Assembly (NCBI GenBank): GCA_025786725.1
Contig: JAHLTZ010000150.1
Coordinates: 1 to 21,800 of the forward strand
Source of the DNA: Syncephalis fuscata
Taxonomy: Eukaryota > Zoopagomycota > Zoopagomycetes > Zoopagales > Piptocephalidaceae
DNA length: 21,800 nt
Direction of reading: 5' to 3'
Shown one piece after another: positions 1,200-18,454 of this stretch. Each line of letters begins with the position of its first letter. The first letter of the stretch is position 1. A program made the position numbers and the translations under genes. Under the pieces are notes generated by a model that was not told where the DNA came from, made no database searches, and was given only the letters and a program-made list of their open reading frames with translations.

Positions 1200-1207
1200 T
1201 ATAAATA
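1200..1207 (+). promoter_or_regulatory. TATA box of the micro-exon secreted-peptide gene
   Basis: TATAAATA is a full match to the eukaryotic TATA consensus. It lies 137 bp upstream of the ATG at 1345. The stretch between them is pyrimidine-rich (CTCTAC, CTCTCC, CTCTAC at about 1250-1310), as in leaders of strongly expressed fungal genes. The ATG has A at -3 (context CACC-ATG). Initiation would be expected near 1230-1245. Confidence 0.6.
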
Positions 1208-1344
1208 GCCCACAAAATATGCACAATCAATTGCAATATCATTATCACACTCTACTTCTTGCTATAAACGCACTACTCTCCACTTTATACCAACCGCACT
1301 CTACTATTCCTTTTATTTGTTTGTCTTAACAAATCGATATCACC

Positions 1345-4300
1345 ATGAAGCTTTCCATTGCTGTCGTTTGCACCATTGTCGTGGCTATCATGGCCAGTAC
1401 AGCCATGGTGGATGCTAATCCAGCCATAGTTCGTCGTGATGGTATGTTGCAATAATAGACATGTCACAGAATCATGCTTATTAACAGTATTTTTAAATAA
1501 TAATTATAATAGCCAGTAGGTTGTGCTGCGTATTAACTGACTATTCGCTAACTATATCACGTATTGTGTATCGATAACTTAACATTAATAGTTGGTGGGT
1601 TGTATTACATATCAATAGAGCATCTACTAATTATGTACCATGTACTGTGCCCATTAATAACTTAATATTAGAGGATTGTAAGTTATATGTATATTAACTG
1701 ATCACTTACTAATTGCATGTTATACACCATGTTTATCAATGACTTCATATCAATAGGTCGTAGGTTGTATTGTATATCAATTGACTACTTACCAATTACA
1801 TGCTATGCACCCTTTGCATCAACAACTTAATACTAATAGGTCGTAAGTAATATTGTATATTGCTAACTTATAAATTAATTTCCATTTATTATTTGTATTA
1901 AAAACCTTATTAATAGGAGGTAGGTGGTACTCTATATTAACTGATCACTCACTAATCACATGTTATACACCATGTTTATCAATGGCTTCATATCAATAGG
2001 CCGTAAGTTATATTGTATATCAATTGATTACTCACTAATTATACGTTATGCACCATGTGTATTAACAACTTAATATTAATAGGCGGTAAGTGGTATTGTA
2101 TATTGACTGGCTTATAAATTAATTGTATAACATATATTATGTATATCAACAACCTAATACCATAGCGGGTAAGTTGTATTGTGTATTACTTGACTATGTG
2201 CTAATTCTATGCCATGCGCTACGTATATCAACAACTTGATACTAATAGCATGTAAGTTATTGTATATTAATTAAACATTGGCTAATTATATATTATGTGC
2301 TGCGTATATCAACAACTAATGCTAATAGGTTGTAAGTTGTATTGTATGTTGATGGCGTATAAACTAATTATATATCATGTATTGCGCACATTGATAACTT
2401 AATTCCATAGTTAGTAAGTTGTATTATATATTAATTGAGTATTAACTAATTATATATCATGTACTATGTGTATCAATAACTTAATATAATAGAAAGTAAG
2501 TGGCATTTTATATAAGCTAATTACTCACTGATTATATTCATGTACTGTATGTATCAATTTAATATTAATAGAATGTAAGTTGTATTGTATATTATTTTTA
2601 TTTTTATTTTGAAGAGCTTGTGAGCCCCCGCTGCGCATAATTAAAGAATTTGTGCTGCTTCCCACTATATTTGGACTTTTCCAAACTTTTAACGGGTGGA
2701 CTGCCACGTTTTTGCGCAAAATCTGGTCCATATAGATTTTACACGGGGGCCATCTTCTTTTAAATGGTGCTACACAGCACTATTCTCTTGAAGTTGGTCC
2801 CAATTGGGTTTTCCTCGACTATTCTGGCCAAGGTCTTGTTTCCGGACCTACTTATTGGGTTCTGGTTTGCAATTTGTTAACTAGAGAAAACTGGGGGGGA
2901 TTTTCCACTTAAGGATTGGTTCAAACTGAGGTTTGAATCCGAAGCCTTCAGCTCGGGAGACGCTGCCTTACCAACTGGGCTAGCAACGTCCCCTTGTATT
3001 GTATATTAACTGACTACTTACTAATTATATATTGTGTATTGTGTGTATCGATAACTCAATATTAATAGGCGGTAAGTGGTAGTATATATTAATTGACTAT
3101 ACATTAACTATACTATTTACTGGTGGTATTAATTATTTAATATTAATAGCTTGTAAGTTGTATTGTATATTAACTATGTTATTTACTGCTTATACTAATT
3201 ATTTAATATTAATAGATTGTAAGTAGTATTGTATATTAACTATGTTATTCGCTGATTATACTAATTATTTAATGTTAATAGATTGTAAGTTGCATTGTAT
3301 ATCAACTATTATTTACTAATTATACTAATTATTTAATATTAATAGTCTGTAAGTTGTATTGTATATTAACTGACTATACATTAACCATGCTATTTACTAA
3401 TTATACTAATTATTTAATATTAATAGCTTGTAAGTTGTATTGTATATTAACTAACTATGCATTAACCATGCTATTTACTGGTGGTATTAATTATTTAATA
3501 TTAATAGTGCGTAAGTTGTATTGTATATTAACTATGTTATTCACTGATTATATTAATTATTTAATATTAATAGGGTGTAAGTGGCATTGTATATTAACTA
3601 ACTATACATTAACCATACTATTTACTGGTGGTATTAATTATTTAATATTAATAGCCTGTAAGTTGTATTGTATATTAACTATGTTATTCACTGATTATGC
3701 TAATTATATAATATTAATAGGCAGTAAGTTGTATTGTATATTAACTAACTATACATTAACTATGTTATTTACTTATTATACTATTATTTAATACTAATAG
3801 ATGGTAAGTGATATTGCATATTAACTGACTATACATTAACTATGTTATTTACTGATAATATTAATTATTTAATATTAATAGCGGGTAGGTGTTATTGTAT
3901 ATTATTTAAATATACATTAACTATGTTATTTACTAATTATACCAATTATTTAATGTTAATAGAGTGTAAGTTGTATTATATATTGACCATGCTATTTACT
4001 GATTATACCAATTATTTAATGCTAATAGGCGGTAAGTTTATTATATATTAATTAATTACTAATTGTATTAATTATTTAATATTAATAGATTGTAAGTTGT
4101 ATTGTATATCAACTATGTTATTTACTGCTTATACTAATTATTTAATATTAATAGCTTGTAAGTTGTATTGTATATTAATTATGTTATTTACTGATTATAC
4201 TAATTATTTAATATTAATAGATTGTAAGCAGTATTGTATATCAACTAACTATACATTAACTATGTTATTTACTGGTTATACTAATTATTTAATATTAATA

Positions 4301-4759
4301 GGGCGTAAGTTGTATTGTGTATTAACTGACTATACATTAACCATGCTATTTACTGGTGATATTAATTATTTAATACTAATAGGCAGTAAGTAGTATTTTA
4401 TATTAACTGACATACATTAACTATGTTATTTACCGACTATACCAATATTCAATATTAATAGTATGTAAGTAGTATTATATATTAACTGACTGCATTAATT
4501 ATACTATTTACTGATTATACTAATTATTTAATGCTAATAGGCCGTAAGTAGTATTGTATATTAACTGACTGCATTAATTATACTATTTACTGATTATACT
4601 AATTATTTAATGCTAATAGGCCGTAAGTAGCACTGTATATTGATGTCTTATATGTTAATTATATGACATATAATATCTATTTGTAAATACAGCATAATCA
4701 ATGGTTGCAAGACATTAGCATTAATAGTGCAATCAAATCACTATTCCAATACACTTTAG
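1345..4759 (+). CDS. Secreted cysteine-rich peptide gene built from ~36 consecutive 3-nt micro-exons
   Basis: Exon 1 is 1345-1441: 32 codons plus one G (phase 1), followed by donor GTATGT. It encodes a signal peptide (MKLSIAVVCTIVVAIM start, cleavage near AMVDA-NP) and a short pro-segment ending in a dibasic RR. Micro-exons then begin at 1513, 1592, 1672 (6 nt), 1757, 1840, 1917, 2000, 2083, 2166, 2249, 2329, 2411, 2493, 2572, 3069, 3150, 3216, 3282, 3346, 3427, 3508, 3574, 3655, 3721, 3801, 3882, 3963, 4029, 4089, 4155, 4221, 4302, 4383, 4462, 4541 and 4620. All are 3 nt except the third. The terminal exon starts at 4728 and its stop TAG is 4757-4759. The spliced frame is 240 nt, 79 residues, without internal stop. 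Six cysteines fall at precursor positions 37, 44, 48, 57, 61 and 68, spaced x6, x3, x8, x3, x6, like a disulfide-stapled helical hairpin. Splicing is inferred, not observed. Function is unknown; an effector, defence or signalling peptide are all possible. Confidence 0.8.
2580..2594 (+). repeat. Left target-site duplication of the SINE
   Basis: The 15-mer TTGTATTGTATATTA is repeated exactly at 2994-3008. It is part of the normal intron repeat unit; removing the insert and one copy restores an ordinary unit giving an 80-nt intron. Confidence 0.85.
2595..2993 (-). mobile_element. tRNA-derived SINE inserted antisense in the micro-exon array
   Basis: On the minus strand the ~399-bp element begins with a tRNA-like head. 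Box A (TAGCCCAGTTGGTAAGGC) is at 2965-2982 and box B (GGATTCAAACC) at 2930-2940, at tRNA-like spacing, so it carries an internal Pol III promoter. A tRNA-unrelated body follows, ending in an A-rich tail (complement of the T-rich 2595-2614). It is flanked by an exact 15-bp duplication, the mark of LINE-assisted retroposition. It sits inside the intron between micro-exons 14 and 15 and expands it from about 80 to 494 nt. No protein is encoded. Its family is not recognised. Confidence 0.85.
2994..3008 (+). repeat. Right target-site duplication of the SINE
   Basis: This is an exact 15-bp copy of 2580-2594, directly abutting the tRNA-like head of the element at 2993. After it the intron repeat unit resumes mid-unit. 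Confidence 0.85.
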
Positions 4760-5857
4760 GTATATATTCGGTGAAAAGCAAGACCATTTGACAACTACGC
4801 CGTCCTGTCTATCCATATAAGTTTTGGCCAATGCTCCGGTTTATCCAGTTTTTAATTAATGGAATCATTATTTTATCAACAAGCTTGCATTTAGCTGTTT
4901 TTATTCAACTGTGCAGGCATATAGTAATAGACTTGTGGTTTCATCTTAACTGTATACAATCAAATTGCTATATCAATAACCATGTTTTATTTGCATCCAA
5001 TAATGGCAATTATTGATCAAATAGTTAAATTAACAAAAGACATGCACAATTATATTTTATTAGCCATAAGCATAGGATGGTATGAATATGGTAATGTTAA
5101 ATATGGATATTGTAATGATAAATGTTGGCAATAAAGTTGGCTGTGCTTATTTTTAAATATACCATGGATAGTAACAAATCTATCACTATCATATAAGAAA
5201 ATGATATTGTACCAATATTGATATAGAATAAGCATCGATTGCTAACAACTTGGCACTACATTGTGACGACTAGCAACTTAATGGCTACCGTCTTGTTTAC
5301 GCTTACTTCTATCATCCAAGCATTAGTGGCTACTAATTAATTGCTTAATATAACATGAACCGATGTTATTATAAAATAAACAATAAATGATTTTCCTTTT
5401 AATTATTGATTACCATAGTTAAGCTTTTAATAACTAAATAACATTTGTAACTAAAGCAGAAAAAAGAATACAGCACCAAAGATATAGATGTGTATTATAA
5501 TTCCAATAAAGCTAGTGTTTTATAGTATATACTGTTGTTAATAGAATTGAACTTTGTCCATAAGGTTGCTTATATGTCAGTAGATAACAAGTATTTACTG
5601 GTTATGTCCTTGTATAAATGTTTGTTTATGATTGTTAGTACTAGTATTTAGTATATTGTTGCTGTGGCTATTTATATGTTATCATTGGCATATTGTTTAA
5701 TTACATAGTGGACTTTATGGATCAATTTCATGGTAGATAATTACGCGACCATAATACTGTAATTCGGTGCCGTAAAAATGTAATATTTATATATTTTTAA
5801 TAACTATGGCCATTATAAAGATGTAATGTGTTTGTTTCTAACAATCAAGCTATTCCA
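4760..5857. other. AT-rich region downstream of the micro-exon gene
   Basis: The 3' UTR of the micro-exon gene must start here. The first clear AATAAA found is near 5374, about 600 nt past the stop, so the true poly(A) signal may be a weaker variant nearer the stop. Short frames at 4831-5016 (plus) and 5050-5235 (minus) have no coding character I can recognise. Confidence 0.45.
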
Positions 5858-7832: not shown

Positions 7833-10565
7833 TTAGTAAGCGCCGGTGTAACCATAGCTGGTGCTAGGATAGGAGTTGTAACCGCCGTTAGCTGGTGCAG
7901 ATACCGGAGCTGGCGCATTTGGGTAGGCGTTATGCGAAGCTGGAGCTGGAGTGTCTGGGTAGGCATTGTGAGAAGCTGGAGTGGTTGAAGCAGCTGGAGC
8001 TGGAGTCACTGGAGTGTATGAAGAGTGAGGGGCTGAAGTGACTGGAGCTGGAGTATCTGGGTAGGCGTTATACGAAGCTGGAGTGGTTGAGGTAGCTGGT
8101 GCTGGAGTTACTGGAGTGTATGAAGAATGAGGGGTTGAAGTGGCTGATGCTGGAGTAGTTGAAGTGGCTGGTGCTGGAGTCGCTGGAGTGTAAGAAGCTG
8201 GAGGGGCTGAAGTGGCGTGGGTCTCATTGTGGAAAGGAATGTGACCGCTGCACTTGGAGCCGGAGCCAGTACCGGTGCAGGTAGATGGAGCTGGAGTGGA
8301 TGGAGTGGTAGTTTTACCGCAGCTAGTACCGGTGCAGGTAGATGGAGTTGGGACAACTGGGGTGGATGGAGTAGTTGGGACATATCCGCCATAGGTGTCG
8401 TTACCAGCTGGAGTGGATGGAGTGGTAGTCTTACCGCAGCTAGTACCGGTGCAGGTAGATGGAGCTGAAGCAGATGGGGTGGATGGAGTAGTTGGTACAT
8501 ATCCGCCATAGGTGTCGTGACCAGCTGGAGCTGGAGTTGAGACGACTGGAGCTGGAGTGTCAGGGTAGGCGTTATGAGGAGCTGGAGCAGATGGGGTAGT
8601 TGGTACATATCCGCCATAGGTGTCGTGACCAGCTGGAGCTGGAGTTGGGACGACTGGAGCTGGAGTGTCAGGGTAGACGTTATGAGGAGCTGGGCTAACT
8701 GGAGTGGATGGAGTAGTTGGGACATATCCGCCATAGGTGTCGCTGCCAGATGGGACTGGGGCTGAAGTGGATGGCGTGGTGTAAGTCTCATGACCGGATG
8801 GGACCTGTGGCTTAGCTGGAACATAACCAAATGGAGCTGGTACACAAGTGCAGATCTGGTGGGTTGATGGAATATAGATAGGAGCTGGAGCAGATGGAAC
8901 GACATAAGTGTTGTTACCAGATGAGACTGGAGCTGGAGCAGATGGGACATATCCGCCATAGGTGTCGTTACCAGCTGGAGCTGAGACAACTGGAGTGGAT
9001 GGGATGGTTGGTACATATTCGCCATAAGTATCGTGACCAGCTGGAGTTGGAGCTGGGACTATTGGGGTAGATGGAGTAGTTGGGACATATCCGCCATAGG
9101 TGTCGCTGCCAGATGGAGCTGGAGCTGAAACTACTGGAGCTGGAGCAGATGGGACATATCCACCATAGGTGTCGTTACCAGATGGAGTTGGAACGGTAGT
9201 TTTACCGCAGCTAGTACCGGTGCAGGTAGATGGAGCAGATGGGACATTACCGCCATAAGTGCTGTTGTCGTGATCACCTGAAGCTGGAGTAGCTGGTGCG
9301 GTCTTGTTGCATGGAGCCTTTGGAGTTGGAATGTCATCAGTGTCATTGCCAGCTGGAGTTGAAGCTGGAACAGATGGAACTGGAGTGGTAGTCTTACCGC
9401 AGCTAGTACCGGTGCAGGTAGATGGAGCTGGAGCAGATGGGACATTACCGCCATAAGTGTCGTTACCAGATGGAGTTGGAACGGTTGTTTTACCGCAGCT
9501 AGTACCGGTGCAGGTAGATGGAGCTGGAGCAGATGGGACATTACCGCCATAAGTGCTGTTGTCGTGATCACCTGAAGCTGGAGTAGCTGGTGCGGTCTTG
9601 TTGCATGGAGCCTTTGGAGTTGGAATGTCATCAGTGTCATTGCCAGCTGGAGTTGAAGCTGGAACAGATGGAACTGGAGTGGTAGTCTTACCGCAGCTAA
9701 TACCGGTGCAGGTAGATGGAGCTGGAGCAGATGGGACATTACCGCCATAAGTGCTGTTGTCGTGATCACCTGAAGCTGGAGTAGCTGGTGCGGTCTTGTT
9801 GCATGGAGCCTTTGGAGTTGGAATGTCATCAGTGTCATTGCCGGCTGGAGTTGAAGCTGGAACAGATGGAACTGGAGTGGTAGTCTTACCGCAGCTAGTA
9901 CCGGTGCAGGTAGATGGAGCTGGAGCAGATGGGACATTACCGCCATAAGTGCTGTTGTCGTGATCACCTGAAGCTGGAGTAGCTGGTGCGGTCTTGTTGC
10001 ATGGGGCCTTTGGAGCTGGGGCATCATAAACATCATCGCCAGCTGGAGTTGGGACTGGAGCTGATGGAGTCTCATTGTATTCACCACCTGGAGTTGGAGT
10101 ATCATGGTACTCACCACCTGGAGCTGGTGCTGATGGAGTCTCATCGTATTCACCACCTGGAGTTGGAGTATCATGGTATTCACCACCTGGAGCTGGAGCT
10201 GATGGAGTATCATGGTATTCACCACCTGGAGCTGGAGCTGATGGAGTATCATGGTATTCACCACCTGGAGTTGATGGAATCGATGGAACATTTGATTCAG
10301 GTGCTCTGGCTCTGCACTTGAACACGCTGCAGCAAATAGGATGCTTGGTGTTGCACTTGACATTTTGGGTGGTCGTGTGCTTTGGTGTAGTAGTGCACGT
10401 ACCATCAACACGCTTTAGATTACCGTTAACAGTGCCGCAGTGGTGGGCACCATTGTAGCAATGGAAAGTAGCGGTACCACAGCCATCGCTGATGATTCCG
10501 GGGCTAGCAATGACGCTCTGGGCGGCAAGGATAAGAGCAGCAGACAAAATAAAAGCACCCTTCAT
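7833..10565 (-). CDS. Secreted Cys-rich and Thr/Pro-rich repeat protein (910 aa), wall or adhesin-like
   Basis: The single uninterrupted frame starts with a signal peptide (MKGAFILSAALILAAQSVIA, 1-20). Residues 21-88 form a compact domain with eight cysteines at 29, 36, 43, 57, 71, 78, 79 and 84. From about 89 the protein is low-complexity Pro/Thr/Ser/Ala/Gly: first six GGEYHDTP-type repeats, then longer units with APCNKTAP, DNSTYGG and STCTGTSCGKTT, then TYGGYVPTTPSTP units, and a Thr/Pro/Ala tail ending NGGYNSYPSTSYGYTGAY. The repeats carry many N-glycosylation sequons (NKT, NST, NDT, NET) and paired cysteines. There is no transmembrane segment or GPI-type hydrophobic end. The composition suggests an extended, heavily glycosylated extracellular or wall protein with a small N-terminal binding domain. 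The family is not recognised and the function is inferred from composition only. The other long frames over this stretch are shadows of the repeats. Confidence 0.88.
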   Translation of the reverse strand: MKGAFILSAALILAAQSVIASPGIISDGCGTATFHCYNGAHHCGTVNGNLKRVDGTCTTTPKHTTTQNVKCNTKHPICCSVFKCRARAPESNVPSIPSTPGGEYHDTPSAPAPGGEYHDTPSAPAPGGEYHDTPTPGGEYDETPSAPAPGGEYHDTPTPGGEYNETPSAPVPTPAGDDVYDAPAPKAPCNKTAPATPASGDHDNSTYGGNVPSAPAPSTCTGTSCGKTTTPVPSVPASTPAGNDTDDIPTPKAPCNKTAPATPASGDHDNSTYGGNVPSAPAPSTCTGISCGKTTTPVPSVPASTPAGNDTDDIPTPKAPCNKTAPATPASGDHDNSTYGGNVPSAPAPSTCTGTSCGKTTVPTPSGNDTYGGNVPSAPAPSTCTGTSCGKTTTPVPSVPASTPAGNDTDDIPTPKAPCNKTAPATPASGDHDNSTYGGNVPSAPSTCTGTSCGKTTVPTPSGNDTYGGYVPSAPAPVVSAPAPSGSDTYGGYVPTTPSTPIVPAPTPAGHDTYGEYVPTIPSTPVVSAPAGNDTYGGYVPSAPAPVSSGNNTYVVPSAPAPIYIPSTHQICTCVPAPFGYVPAKPQVPSGHETYTTPSTSAPVPSGSDTYGGYVPTTPSTPVSPAPHNVYPDTPAPVVPTPAPAGHDTYGGYVPTTPSAPAPHNAYPDTPAPVVSTPAPAGHDTYGGYVPTTPSTPSASAPSTCTGTSCGKTTTPSTPAGNDTYGGYVPTTPSTPVVPTPSTCTGTSCGKTTTPSTPAPSTCTGTGSGSKCSGHIPFHNETHATSAPPASYTPATPAPATSTTPASATSTPHSSYTPVTPAPATSTTPASYNAYPDTPAPVTSAPHSSYTPVTPAPAASTTPASHNAYPDTPAPASHNAYPNAPAPVSAPANGGYNSYPSTSYGYTGAY
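9219..10018 (-). repeat. Near-identical 198-bp repeats inside the repeat-protein gene
   Basis: Two full 198-bp units (9507-9704 and 9705-9902) and a partial one (9903 to about 10018) are almost identical. A 192-bp unit at 9219-9410 lacks 6 bp, and 9411-9506 is a 96-bp short form. All lengths are multiples of 3, so copy number can change without breaking the frame. The near identity at DNA level points to recent unequal exchange or conversion. Confidence 0.85.
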
Positions 10566-12082: not shown

Positions 12083-14160
12083 ATGTATTATTTTAAAATC
12101 ACAGCAGCATTAATTTTATTATTAATGCAGTTGAATGAAGTCCCAAATGCTACATTAGGATGATCAGCCTTATCAGCTCTGTGTTATAATAAAACAGCAA
12201 TAACAACAGCCGATACATCAGATAATTATGTTAAACAAAACATACCACGCTTAGTTAAACGTTTTACTCAAAAATTAAAACAAAGAACTGTTGCACAGGA
12301 TTATAAAATCATTGGATTTGGAATGGCACCAACCATAAAATATCTGAAAACCAACAGTTTGGTAAGTCCCATGGTACCACATGCATCTACTGGTGTAGAT
12401 ACTATGCATCGCCAAGGTGTAATGGGCAAAGGAGTTAAAATAGCCATTATAGATAGTGGCGTCGATTATTTACATCCAGCGCTTGGGGGCGCATTTGGTC
12501 CTAATCACAAGGTGGCTTTTGGCTATGACTTTGTTGGTGACAGCTATGGCGACACGGGTGTTGCCGCCGCAAAAAAAGATCCTATGGATTGCATGGGCCA
12601 CGGTACACGTATAGCCGGTATAGTTGCAGCAAACACAGCTACATTTGTTGGAGTAGCACCTGAGGCGAAACTTGGGCCTATTGCATAATTGGTTGCAGAT
12701 TTGCGCCTGCTTCCATGTCAATTATAAAACAGGCATTCGACATGGCAGACACGGACGGCATGCATATTATTAATATTTCATTCAGCAATTATCTGGGCAA
12801 CAATGGAGCACTTTTGTCTAGTTTTGTGGAGCAATACACTCAGCGAGGAATCATTATTACTGCGTCGACTGGTAATATACGACAAATGCAGAAAATAACG
12901 TGGACTTCTAATGTACCGAGTATTGCGCCATCTGTAATTTCAGTTGGTTCCATGGATATACCGTACATTATATCCGATTCGTTTAAAGCTGTTGGCCTTG
13001 GCACGGATGCTATTATGTACAAAAACATTTGCTTTAATATTCAACTGTTATTAAGAGAATATGATGTGATTACAATGCATTATTCAGAATATCCAGATCA
13101 ATGTACCATTCCAAATAATGCAAATGGCAAGATAGTCTGGATGCCATATGATGGATGCGATATTAGTCGTTTATTTAAAAATATGAAAAATAGTGGCGTT
13201 GTCGGTAGTATAATTTTAAATTCTGACAAAAAATACAACAATTGTTTAGTTCCAGCTATTTCTGTTGGTAATCAGTTTGCCAAGATTGCTTCAGAATTGA
13301 TTGCAAAAGGACAATCACTCAGACTTGGGTTCTATGGACACAAATCTCACGTTCCAGATACAAGCAGTATCTCGGGCTCTATTTCTGCAGCCTGGGGGCC
13401 ATCGTTAGACCTTGGAATGAATCCAGATATTATGGCGCCCGGCGTAGCAATGTTTACAACTACAAATAAGGCTGAGAAATTTCAGATTGATCGTGGTACA
13501 TCATTTGCAGCGCCTTATGTGGCAGGTGTGGCCGCGCTCTATCTTCAGGCACATGCCAGTGCAGACGATAATATTAAGCGATTTAATCCAGTAGAATTTA
13601 AGAAGACTATCCAAAGTACGGCAATACCTTGCATAATGCCACATACACAGCTTGCTGGATCGGTGGCTCAGCAAGGCGCTGGGCTTGTTTGTATCGATCG
13701 AGCCATGTTGGTCTCATTTACTGTGTCGCCCTCGGTGATAGAGCTTGGAGATAGGCAGACAAAGGCCATGTATCAGGATGGAAAACTAAGTCGGATAACT
13801 ATTTATAATCCAGCATCTGTTGTAAAAACATTTACCACTACTCATTTACCTGCCGTATCAATGCGTGGATTTGATAGCAATGGTAAGGAGTTCAGGCCAC
13901 CACAGATTTGTGAGATACATGCAAAAGCTATTTTTTCCAAATATACATCGGTAGAACCAGAGACATCAGTGTCGATTAGCATTAAATTCGACATACCGCT
14001 TTTACGTGCCTACAAAGACCACTGGCTTTACTCTGGTTATATTATCGTCGATCCAGATCACAAACCAAACCGCCCATCTTCAAGCCAGGCTATTTATATA
14101 CCTTATTTTGGGCTTAATGGTAGCATAAACAATATTAGAAAAATGGTTAAACAGCCGTAA
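12083..14160 (+). pseudogene. Subtilisin-like (S8) protease with PA-type insert, broken by a stop and a frameshift
   Basis: The plausible start at 12083 gives a signal-like MYYFKITAALILLLMQL; an in-frame ATG also lies at 12053. An in-frame TGA (12161-12163) follows in the pre-pro part, and the same frame then continues into the protease domain. The catalytic residues are present: Asp in IIDSGVD (12452-12454), His in MGHGTRIAG (12599-12601) and Ser in GTSFAAP (13501-13503); STGN resembles the oxyanion Asn motif. Near 12675, after the APEAKLG segment, one base is missing and the alignment to the family continues in the next frame. A PA-like insert (about 13200-13310) and the beginning of a C-terminal Fn3-like domain follow; the protein stops at 14158-14160 soon after a YFGLNG segment, probably short of the family length. 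It resembles the Vpr/C5a-peptidase-like branch. Sequencing error cannot be excluded, but two or three lesions favour a decaying copy. Confidence 0.82.
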
Positions 14161-14898: not shown

Positions 14899-14902
14899 GG
14901 TT

Positions 14903-14976
14903 GCTCACTACAGGGATCGAACCTGTGACCTTGGCGTTATTAGCACCACGCTCTAAACCAACTGAGCTAAGCGAGC
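14903..14976 (-). tRNA. tRNA-Ile, anticodon AAT
   Basis: The 74-nt gene folds into a full cloverleaf. The acceptor GCTCGCT pairs with AGTGAGC (one G-T), D stem GCTC with GAGC, anticodon stem TGGTG with CGCCA (one T-G), loop CTAATAA with anticodon AAT, and T arm ACAGG-TTCGATC-CCTGT is perfect. There is no intron. The D loop has one more T than the usual form. It starts 6 nt after the end of the 5S rRNA gene on the same strand. Confidence 0.95.
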
Positions 14977-14982
14977 CGATAG

Positions 14983-15102
14983 AAACTACATTACTTCTCA
15001 TTCCCGCGTGGTCCCCCACCGCAGTACTACAGAAGCGCGGCCTAACTTAACTTCGGAGATCGGACGGGATCCGGTGCTTTCTAGGCGCAATGAACGTAGT
15101 TG
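14983..15102 (-). rRNA. 5S rRNA
   Basis: The minus strand carries the conserved 5S core ACCGGATCCCGTCCGATCTC followed by CGAAGTTAAG, and the C-box-like TAGTACTGCGGTGGGGGACC. Terminal helix I forms from AACTAC at the 5' end and GTAGTT at the 3' end, giving a typical length of 120 nt. Helix V (CTTCT with AGAAG) and the GCGGTGG/CCACGC stem also pair, so it looks functional. No T-run of four follows it before the tRNA. The exact ends may shift by one or two bases. Confidence 0.9.

Positions 15103-16962: not shown

Positions 16963-18454
<1,492 letters not shown>

Follow-up and report, generated by a model that had tools for sequence, protein, structure and literature searches.

The window analyzed here is a stretch of 21,800 nucleotides (nt) of the genome of Syncephalis fuscata (Zoopagales, Piptocephalidaceae; contig JAHLTZ010000150.1, positions 1 to 21,800, forward strand), in which a gene at 1345-4697 appears to spread its mature peptide over a long series of micro-exons, nearly all of them exactly 3 nt long. 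We consider it likely that in this fungus a whole protein domain is assembled codon by codon from serial 3-nt exons, about 4000 of them spread over dozens of genes for secreted peptides, with the intron plus one codon as the evolving unit, with triplets that diversify far faster than the introns, and with repeated collapse into intronless genes by way of complementary DNA (cDNA). The window gene itself can be taken with high confidence, as judged from its sequence, for an intact-looking member of a large family of small secreted cysteine-rich peptides.

Exon 1 of the window gene (97 nt) is present as the preliminary description of this DNA had it, with a signal peptide and a GTATGT donor. The array behind it holds 36 units in which a TAG acceptor (36/36) and a GT-type donor (GTAAGT in 30/36, GTAGGT in 4, GTGGGT and GTAAGC in 1 each) enclose 3 nt, or 6 nt in a single case; the unit count, donor count and exon sizes given earlier were exact. 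All but one of the 36 micro-exons are 3 nt long, the exception being 6 nt, and together they span 1513-4622. The introns preceding the units are short, as had been noted, measuring 57 to 80 nt in 35 of 36 cases and 494 nt in the one enlarged by a 399-nt insert. The 6-nt micro-exon 3 was found with a permissive acceptor threshold and skipped at a stricter setting, the frame being kept either way. On the opposite strand of the window there was a single unit-like site. The features of the gene are as follows, with the micro-exons placed as in the gene model (UTR, untranslated region; SINE, short interspersed nuclear element).

1200..1208, + strand: TATA-like element TATAAATAG, by direct reading, 145 nt 5' of the ATG; role putative
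1345..1441, + strand: exon 1, signal peptide and dibasic (RR) site, phase-1 end, donor GTATGT
1442..4692, + strand: array of 37 introns and 36 micro-exons
1513..1515, + strand: micro-exon 1, CCA
1592..1594, + strand: micro-exon 2, TTG
1672..1677, + strand: micro-exon 3, AGGATT, 6 nt; a 6-nt unit recurs near the same position in many paralogues
1757..1759, + strand: micro-exon 4, GTC
1840..1842, + strand: micro-exon 5, GTC
1917..1919, + strand: micro-exon 6, GAG
2000..2002, + strand: micro-exon 7, GCC
2083..2085, + strand: micro-exon 8, GCG
2166..2168, + strand: micro-exon 9, CGG
2249..2251, + strand: micro-exon 10, CAT
2329..2331, + strand: micro-exon 11, GTT
2411..2413, + strand: micro-exon 12, TTA
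2493..2495, + strand: micro-exon 13, AAA
2572..2574, + strand: micro-exon 14, AAT
2595..2993, no strand assigned: 399-nt SINE-like insert in the intron before micro-exon 15, with TTGTATTGTATATTA duplicates at 2580 and 2994
3069..3071, + strand: micro-exon 15, GCG
3150..3152, + strand: micro-exon 16, CTT
3216..3218, + strand: micro-exon 17, ATT
3282..3284, + strand: micro-exon 18, ATT
3346..3348, + strand: micro-exon 19, TCT
3427..3429, + strand: micro-exon 20, CTT
3508..3510, + strand: micro-exon 21, TGC
3574..3576, + strand: micro-exon 22, GGT
3655..3657, + strand: micro-exon 23, CCT
3721..3723, + strand: micro-exon 24, GCA
3801..3803, + strand: micro-exon 25, ATG
3882..3884, + strand: micro-exon 26, CGG
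3963..3965, + strand: micro-exon 27, AGT
4029..4031, + strand: micro-exon 28, GCG
4089..4091, + strand: micro-exon 29, ATT
4155..4157, + strand: micro-exon 30, CTT
4221..4223, + strand: micro-exon 31, ATT
4302..4304, + strand: micro-exon 32, GGC
4383..4385, + strand: micro-exon 33, GCA
4462..4464, + strand: micro-exon 34, TAT
4541..4543, + strand: micro-exon 35, GCC
4620..4622, + strand: micro-exon 36, GCC; near-identical tandem duplicate of unit 35 in both intron and triplet, the introns 1.5% apart
4693..4697, + strand: terminal exon, coding part, CA plus stop codon TAA (4695-4697)
4698..4900, + strand: 3' UTR, homologous in micro-exon and intronless paralogues, including 4728-4759; end approximate

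Predicted codon-sized exons and their junctions across the family

Genome-wide counts were made on the assembly of 28.95 Mb (299 contigs), with the reversed pattern as control. The unit pattern TAGNNNGTAAGT matched 4287 sites (1874 + 2413) compared with 302 (155 + 147) for its reverse, which leaves about 4000 candidate 3-nt exons in the family; the array previously described as belonging to a single gene is thus real, but the phenomenon is wider than had been claimed. The stricter pattern TTAATATTAATAG-NNN-GTAAGT had 950 matches and its control none, and TTAATATTAATAG followed by GTAAGT only after 4 to 24 nt occurred once, in the frame-breaking 4-nt unit of array L077 (the counts cover exon lengths up to 24 nt). 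Places homologous to exon 1 numbered 150 genome-wide, 150 of 317 candidates having been scored, and the donor context GGTATGTYRCAATA of exon 1 had 63 matches versus 1 in the control.

Twenty-six arrays were read: that of the window, five on C1 and C2, and 20 from exon-1 matches whose frame ended soon after the donor, a choice that favors intron-bearing members. In one retrieved set, 15 of 20 places held isolated sites and no array; in 14 of these no strand carried more than one site, L043 carried three sites, and none of the 15 had an exon 1 of the searched form. L043 (C1:746-751 kb, - strand), with its three unit-like sites and no recognizable exon 1, is perhaps the remnant of an array.

Gene models were built by dynamic programming on splice-site matrices, a procedure blind to the reading frame. 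With no length preference, 674 of 679 internal exons in the 26 arrays were 3 nt long; the matrices had been trained on sites 3 nt apart, yet each site was scored alone, and Markov-resampled sequence yielded 0.05 units per array (78 trials); the regularity is far beyond chance. A stricter model with acceptors limited to TAG or CAG sized 715 of 730 internal exons at 3 nt and 11 at 6 nt, leaving four of other lengths. In a permissive model, for which the acceptor threshold was lowered for 6-nt exons only, after those had been seen, and the terminal acceptor was set as the first YAG (Y, pyrimidine) 55 to 90 nt past the last donor (the last such site for L059), 716 of 750 exons measured 3 nt and 31 measured 6 nt, and the remaining three (2, 4, and 16 nt) all lay in broken arrays. 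First exons were 94 or 97 nt long with a phase-1 end in all 26 arrays, up to 42 serial 3-nt exons were modeled in one array, introns had a median of 78 nt (range, 53 to 890), and 22 arrays were open to a stop in the terminal exon.

Because phase-1 codons span two micro-exons, coding constraint would be visible only with neighbors joined in order. This was examined in 20 nonredundant arrays (six near-copies omitted), each read to its first frame-breaking unit, with the order of micro-exons shuffled within arrays 5000 times as control. In the frame set by exon 1, the true order produced 1 stop in 510 junction codons compared with 25.2 ± 3.8 after shuffling (minimum, 11), and 70 cysteines compared with 40.0 ± 4.6 (maximum, 58). 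In the two other frames of the true order, stops numbered 2 and 39 and cysteines 5 and 21; since stops are few in the whole-triplet frame too, probably from composition, the shuffle and not that frame serves as the control. Stops were also depleted in the window's own group of three sisters (0 versus 6.4). That the mature peptide is spread over serial 3-nt exons joined in order is therefore strongly supported by these sequence comparisons, and the earlier proposal of a secreted peptide distributed over some 36 such exons gains support both from the 20 arrays and from the cysteine frameworks of intronless relatives.

Intronless paralogues and the evolution of arrays

Eight paralogues carry the family peptide in one continuous frame and share with the window gene the signal peptide, the RR site and the 3' UTR. 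At least four mature cysteines were found in all eight and in 17 of the 22 open arrays, among which 12 had six, one had eight, two had five and seven had 0 to 4. The spacings in intronless copies (n = 8) were 2-3-13-3-3, 2-3-13-3-5, 2-3-9-3-5, 2-3-11-5-3, 3-3-8-3-3 (twice), 2-4-8-3-3 and 2-3-15-6-3, and those in spliced arrays included 2-3-10-3-3, 2-3-13-3-5, 2-3-9-3-8, 2-3-9-5-3, 2-3-7-4-3, 2-3-14-4-3, 3-3-7-3-3 and 3-3-19-3-4. The spacings of many conceptually spliced arrays resemble those of the intronless paralogues and are of the same kind. The window gene and two sisters have spacings of 6-3-8-3-6 and 6-3-14-3-6, and misfits among the open arrays are L069 with eight cysteines, L074 and L075 with five, and L076 with the pattern 2-14-0-3-5. 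Two further continuous frames, L086 and L090, have four cysteines at other spacings. L041 and L042 (C1:573-579 kb and C1:607-613 kb) form a near-identical inverted pair with short, divergent arrays of 12 units, and the mature part of their spliced product is devoid of cysteine.

The 1 kb upstream aligned to that of the window gene in all five intronless genes compared, over the full kilobase in two, over 491 nt in L034 and in pieces in L036 and L037. The element TATAAATA stands at -144 in L034 and was not found within 1 kb upstream of four other intronless paralogues. On a tree built from flanks plus exon 1 (200 bootstraps), the intronless state required five changes (4 to 5 in bootstraps; a single change in 0% of 200), and a single intronless clade was rejected (approximately unbiased test, p 2.7e-6). 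This suggests that a spliced cDNA copy has repeatedly replaced the intron array in place, with precise loss of all introns, an account that would itself require the arrays to be spliced; repeated acquisition of complete arrays, the reverse course, is less likely.

Between sister genes (8 pairs), exon 1 differed by 0 to 2.1% and splice-site cores by 0 to 1.7%, the latter at sites placed by the model in both genes, which favors agreement. Intron bodies differed by 9.5 to 18.1% in six of the pairs and by 0.4% and 2.3% in the two closest. When units were aligned by introns alone in five sister pairs, 141 differences were counted in 447 triplet positions versus 645 in 10340 intron positions (p 3e-55), with triplet/intron ratios of 3.4 to 10 and the three triplet positions about equal. 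The comparison covers 149 of 155 aligned units (those with introns more than 25% different or an exon other than 3 nt were dropped) and five of the eight pairs, W-L044 being dropped as overlapping W-L068, L044-L068 as showing no excess and L041-L042 as nearly identical. Since introns may not be neutral, the triplet excess could reflect diversifying selection, focused mutation or homogenization of introns.

Units with both flanks identical had the identical triplet in 3 of 3 pairs within arrays and in 88 of 91 between arrays. Triplet difference stood at 0.08 between arrays (44 pairs) and 0.50 within them (10 pairs) at 0 to 3% flank divergence, at 0.47 and 0.55 at 3 to 6%, and at 0.67 and 0.60 at 6 to 10%, with 0.72 for random triplets; this both-flank version was used because a within-array test on a one-sided intron overstates turnover at the ends of duplications. 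Sister genes were separated by gaps the size of one unit (76 to 82 nt), and these gaps, together with the recent tandem copy formed by the last two units of the window array, indicate that arrays grow and shrink by units of intron plus codon.

Terminal exon, predicted product, and surroundings of the window gene

The last exon of the window gene most likely starts at 4693 (ATACAG/CATAA), which would place its stop at 4695-4697 and the site at 4728 within the 3' UTR. Nineteen of the 26 arrays have ATACAG 67 to 72 nt 3' of their last donor, six others have a different YAG at 69 to 72 nt, and L060 has an unlike site only; the terminal exon start AAATACAGNNTAATYNA had 66 genome-wide matches versus 4 in the control. 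The preliminary description had instead put the terminal exon at 4728-4759 and expected a coding product of 240 nt, both of which are probably wrong: conceptual splicing predicts 213 nt including the stop, or 70 amino acids, with six mature cysteines spaced 6-3-8-3-6. A TAATAG acceptor at 4727 might still replace or accompany the ATACAG at 4692 and give a longer C terminus. The acceptor matrix trained on the arrays speaks for it and against the preferred site (11.9 versus -7.7), and an exon from 4728 also closes with an in-frame TAG, but TAATAG occurs at this place in few arrays and the TAA matching 4695 is the stop, in a window-like context, in six of the eight intronless genes, which makes this acceptor distinctly unlikely. 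In the other two, L036 and L037, the frame closes in a different context, similar to the terminal exon of array L061.

Protein searches, by a method that needs shared 5-mers, returned matches from Syncephalis fuscata only (3/3 and 1/1). The database proteins P0001 to P0004 are models of family members with a signal peptide; P0004 corresponds to the intronless gene at L025, being identical to the frame read there, and P0001 may be a mismodeled micro-exon gene. The SINE-like insert of the window array carries a 15-nt target-site duplication, and copies 95 to 98% identical were seen, among the retrieved loci, in L039, L066, L076 and L033, in the same orientation relative to the gene. ARAGORN detected no tRNA in its reverse complement, and SINE is here a putative label.

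Elsewhere in the window, a 910-amino-acid open frame at 7833-10565 (- strand) has a signal-like start and Pro/Thr-rich tandem repeats and had no Pfam match. The open frame of a Subtilase (Peptidase_S8) gene at 12323-14160 (+ strand) falls into two pieces, which a short intron between 12688 and 12715 probably separates, and part of an actin gene lies at 16963-17811 (- strand). A 5S rRNA adjoins a tRNA at 14902-15101 (- strand), and an Rfam search of the window returned only 5S rRNA and tRNA.

Alternative readings, precedents, and significance

Several observations weigh against the assembly of these peptides codon by codon. Taken alone, the window array has 0 stops, as do 527 of 5000 shuffles, so that the junction comparison has little power there, and its cysteines are not enriched (5 versus 4.7), nor are those of its group of three (15 versus 13.4). 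Seven of the 22 open arrays (L039, L041, L042, L064, L065, L067, and L078) have fewer than five mature cysteines (0 to 4). The number of 6-nt units depends on the setting (11/730 versus 31/750), and one retrained acceptor matrix picked a frame-breaking 4-nt unit 3 in several arrays. Four of 26 arrays (L060, L063, L072, and L077) are broken or stop early, and introns of 155 to 164 nt in eight arrays hide a poor-site unit that the model skipped, so that some arrays called open may be decaying. The closest sisters, L044 and L068, show no triplet excess (3/120 versus 64/2772), and one of the five pairs in the triplet comparison includes the broken array L063. Well-supported branches of the tree by themselves force only one change of state, most of its deep branches lack support, and a tree of flanks and exon 1 could be distorted by gene conversion. 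The spliced window peptide matched one database protein, with 46% of it aligned, which is the length of the exon-1 part. Four intronless proteins were compared with Pfam together with the spliced window peptide, and no match reached its cut-off; the closest were TIL (15.6 bits, cut-off 24.5) and a CbiG-like linker (15.8 bits, cut-off 27). A PDB sequence search gave no useful match (best E value, 0.31). The AlphaFold single-sequence model of P0004 is weak (mean predicted local distance difference test score, 66; mature part helical), and Foldseek matched nothing to it (best E value, 2.8); no fold is claimed.

The arrays could also be read in other ways. Tandem Repeats Finder does call the window array a tandem repeat, a direct junction of exon 1 with the terminal exon likewise stays open as far as the TAA, and the database models of the family that were examined are devoid of an array product, all of which would suit a minisatellite inside one 3.2-kb intron, its splice-like motifs kept for some other reason, with exon 1 spliced straight to the terminal exon and a signal peptide as the only product. 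We regard this as very improbable, given that ordered junctions in the exon-1 frame are depleted of stops and enriched in cysteines, that 950 of 951 strict sites keep the 3-nt spacing, and that a mature cysteine-rich peptide occupies the corresponding place in intronless paralogues. Combinatorial alternative splicing, in which most transcripts would skip different units and make a library of peptide variants, draws on the observation that skipping one unit keeps the frame and that, of 570 such skips in the 22 open arrays, only 31 create a stop where the new junction forms; the micro-exon genes (MEGs) of schistosomes are likewise discussed in terms of alternative splicing, in the part of that account available (PMC10526429). 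Constraint nevertheless sits on junctions between direct neighbors, as if selection saw the full-order product, and the six-cysteine framework is kept in intronless copies; such a library is unlikely to be what the arrays mainly serve.

Introner-like elements spread into many unrelated genes. Known from fungi as near-identical introns that multiply in genomes, in the abstracted account (PMC4457414), they might have invaded every third base of a once continuous gene, with no duplication of intron-plus-codon units. In keeping with such an invasion, introns 14 to 28 of 12 arrays are alike to nearly the same degree within and between arrays (mean identity, 0.74 and 0.72), triplets show almost no relationship once flank divergence exceeds about 6%, and their differences in the 3 to 6% bin are often 0 or 3 of 3 and seldom 1. 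Set against this are the identity of triplets wherever both flanks are identical save in 3 of 91 pairs between arrays, the unit-sized gaps between sister genes, the existence of adjacent near-identical units with the same triplet, and the strict intron end, with a donor 3 nt on in 950 instances and 4 to 24 nt on in one. Invasion by introners is rather doubtful, and for exon lengths up to 24 nt the strict intron end differs from introner-like elements in going with an exon fixed at 3 nt in one gene family.

In the codon-by-codon assembly that we favor, exon 1 would supply the signal peptide and RR processing site of a predicted secreted peptide, and the serial 3-nt exons, each entered in phase 1, would encode the mature part, so that every codon would join the final base of a micro-exon to the two leading bases of its successor. 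The short introns, with their strong sites, would be removed by intron definition, and since 3 nt are too short for simultaneous binding by both neighboring recognition complexes, adjacent introns would be spliced sequentially or in alternation. The DNA itself shows the anatomy of the arrays, the constraint on frame and on junction order, the cysteine framework, the duplication of units and the excess rate in triplets, and splicing of the arrays in vivo is what we infer from it. Gain or loss of a unit would change one residue without a frameshift, and the small number of stops on unit skipping implies that errors would be mild and variant peptides possible. Triplets change fast while exon 1, the splice sites and, in many members, the cysteine framework are kept, as would suit peptides in an arms race, and fully spliced cDNAs appear to have rewritten some copies into intronless genes several times. 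Syncephalis lives as a parasite of other fungi, and this lifestyle and the fast change of the triplets suggest a role of the peptides against host fungi.

The internal exons of aphid bicycle genes are much longer than one codon. These genes are described, in the excerpts at hand, as a large, fast-evolving family of putative effectors with many unusually small internal exons of one phase (phase 2) and CYC motifs in their proteins (PMC9168663); the arrays here have codon-sized exons entered in phase 1, and many members have the cysteine pattern CxxCxxxC...CxxxC, a different spacing. Schistosoma MEGs, as far as the abstract and portions of the text go, make signal-peptide-bearing secreted proteins from many short, mostly in-frame exons, mostly of 15 bp (6 to 81 bp in the text, 3 to 81 in the abstract), with 10 to 20 exons per gene and introns of 100 bp to 5 kb (PMC10526429). 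Here too a series of short in-frame exons comes after the exon for the signal peptide, but 716 of 750 exons are 3 nt long, introns have a median of 78 nt, and each exon belongs to one repeat unit. Common to MEGs, bicycle genes and the arrays is the logic of building parasite proteins from many small in-phase exons, though the arrays share neither exon size nor phase nor repeat unit with the other two. Exons of 1 to 3 nt can be spliced, according to partly accessible reports of isolated examples such as a 3-bp micro-exon of Drosophila homothorax, RPS24, plant micro-exons, and single-nucleotide exons of Arabidopsis and of Fusarium CYP621A (PMC7392893, PMC11162997, PMC8831610, PMC4674806, PMC12940212). 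These are single or few per gene as far as described, unlike the serial arrays here. The products resemble small secreted cysteine-rich fungal effectors in their signal peptide, dibasic site, length of 60 to 80 amino acids and often six cysteines, with secretion predicted, and differ in having no Pfam family above cut-off and no solved relative; to our knowledge, the gene structure of the arrays matches no known cysteine-rich effector gene.

In the open-licence literature, judged mostly at the level of titles and abstracts, no precedent for serial 3-nt exons was found among the papers listed. We rate the codon-sized repeat unit as categorically new, although a cautious view could place it at the far end of the range of micro-exon genes. 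Very short exons escape gene prediction and RNA-seq aligners, as the consulted parts of two reports state (PMC8831610, PMC7821500), so that part of the secretome of this fungus may be unseen and similar families may be hidden elsewhere. If confirmed by RNA, the arrays would stand at the extreme of exon splitting, and some 40 of these exons in succession would put intron definition, as well as ordered or recursive splicing, to a hard test. Such an architecture would also offer a route to evolvable proteins, in which intron recombination inserts or deletes single residues and the frame is always kept.

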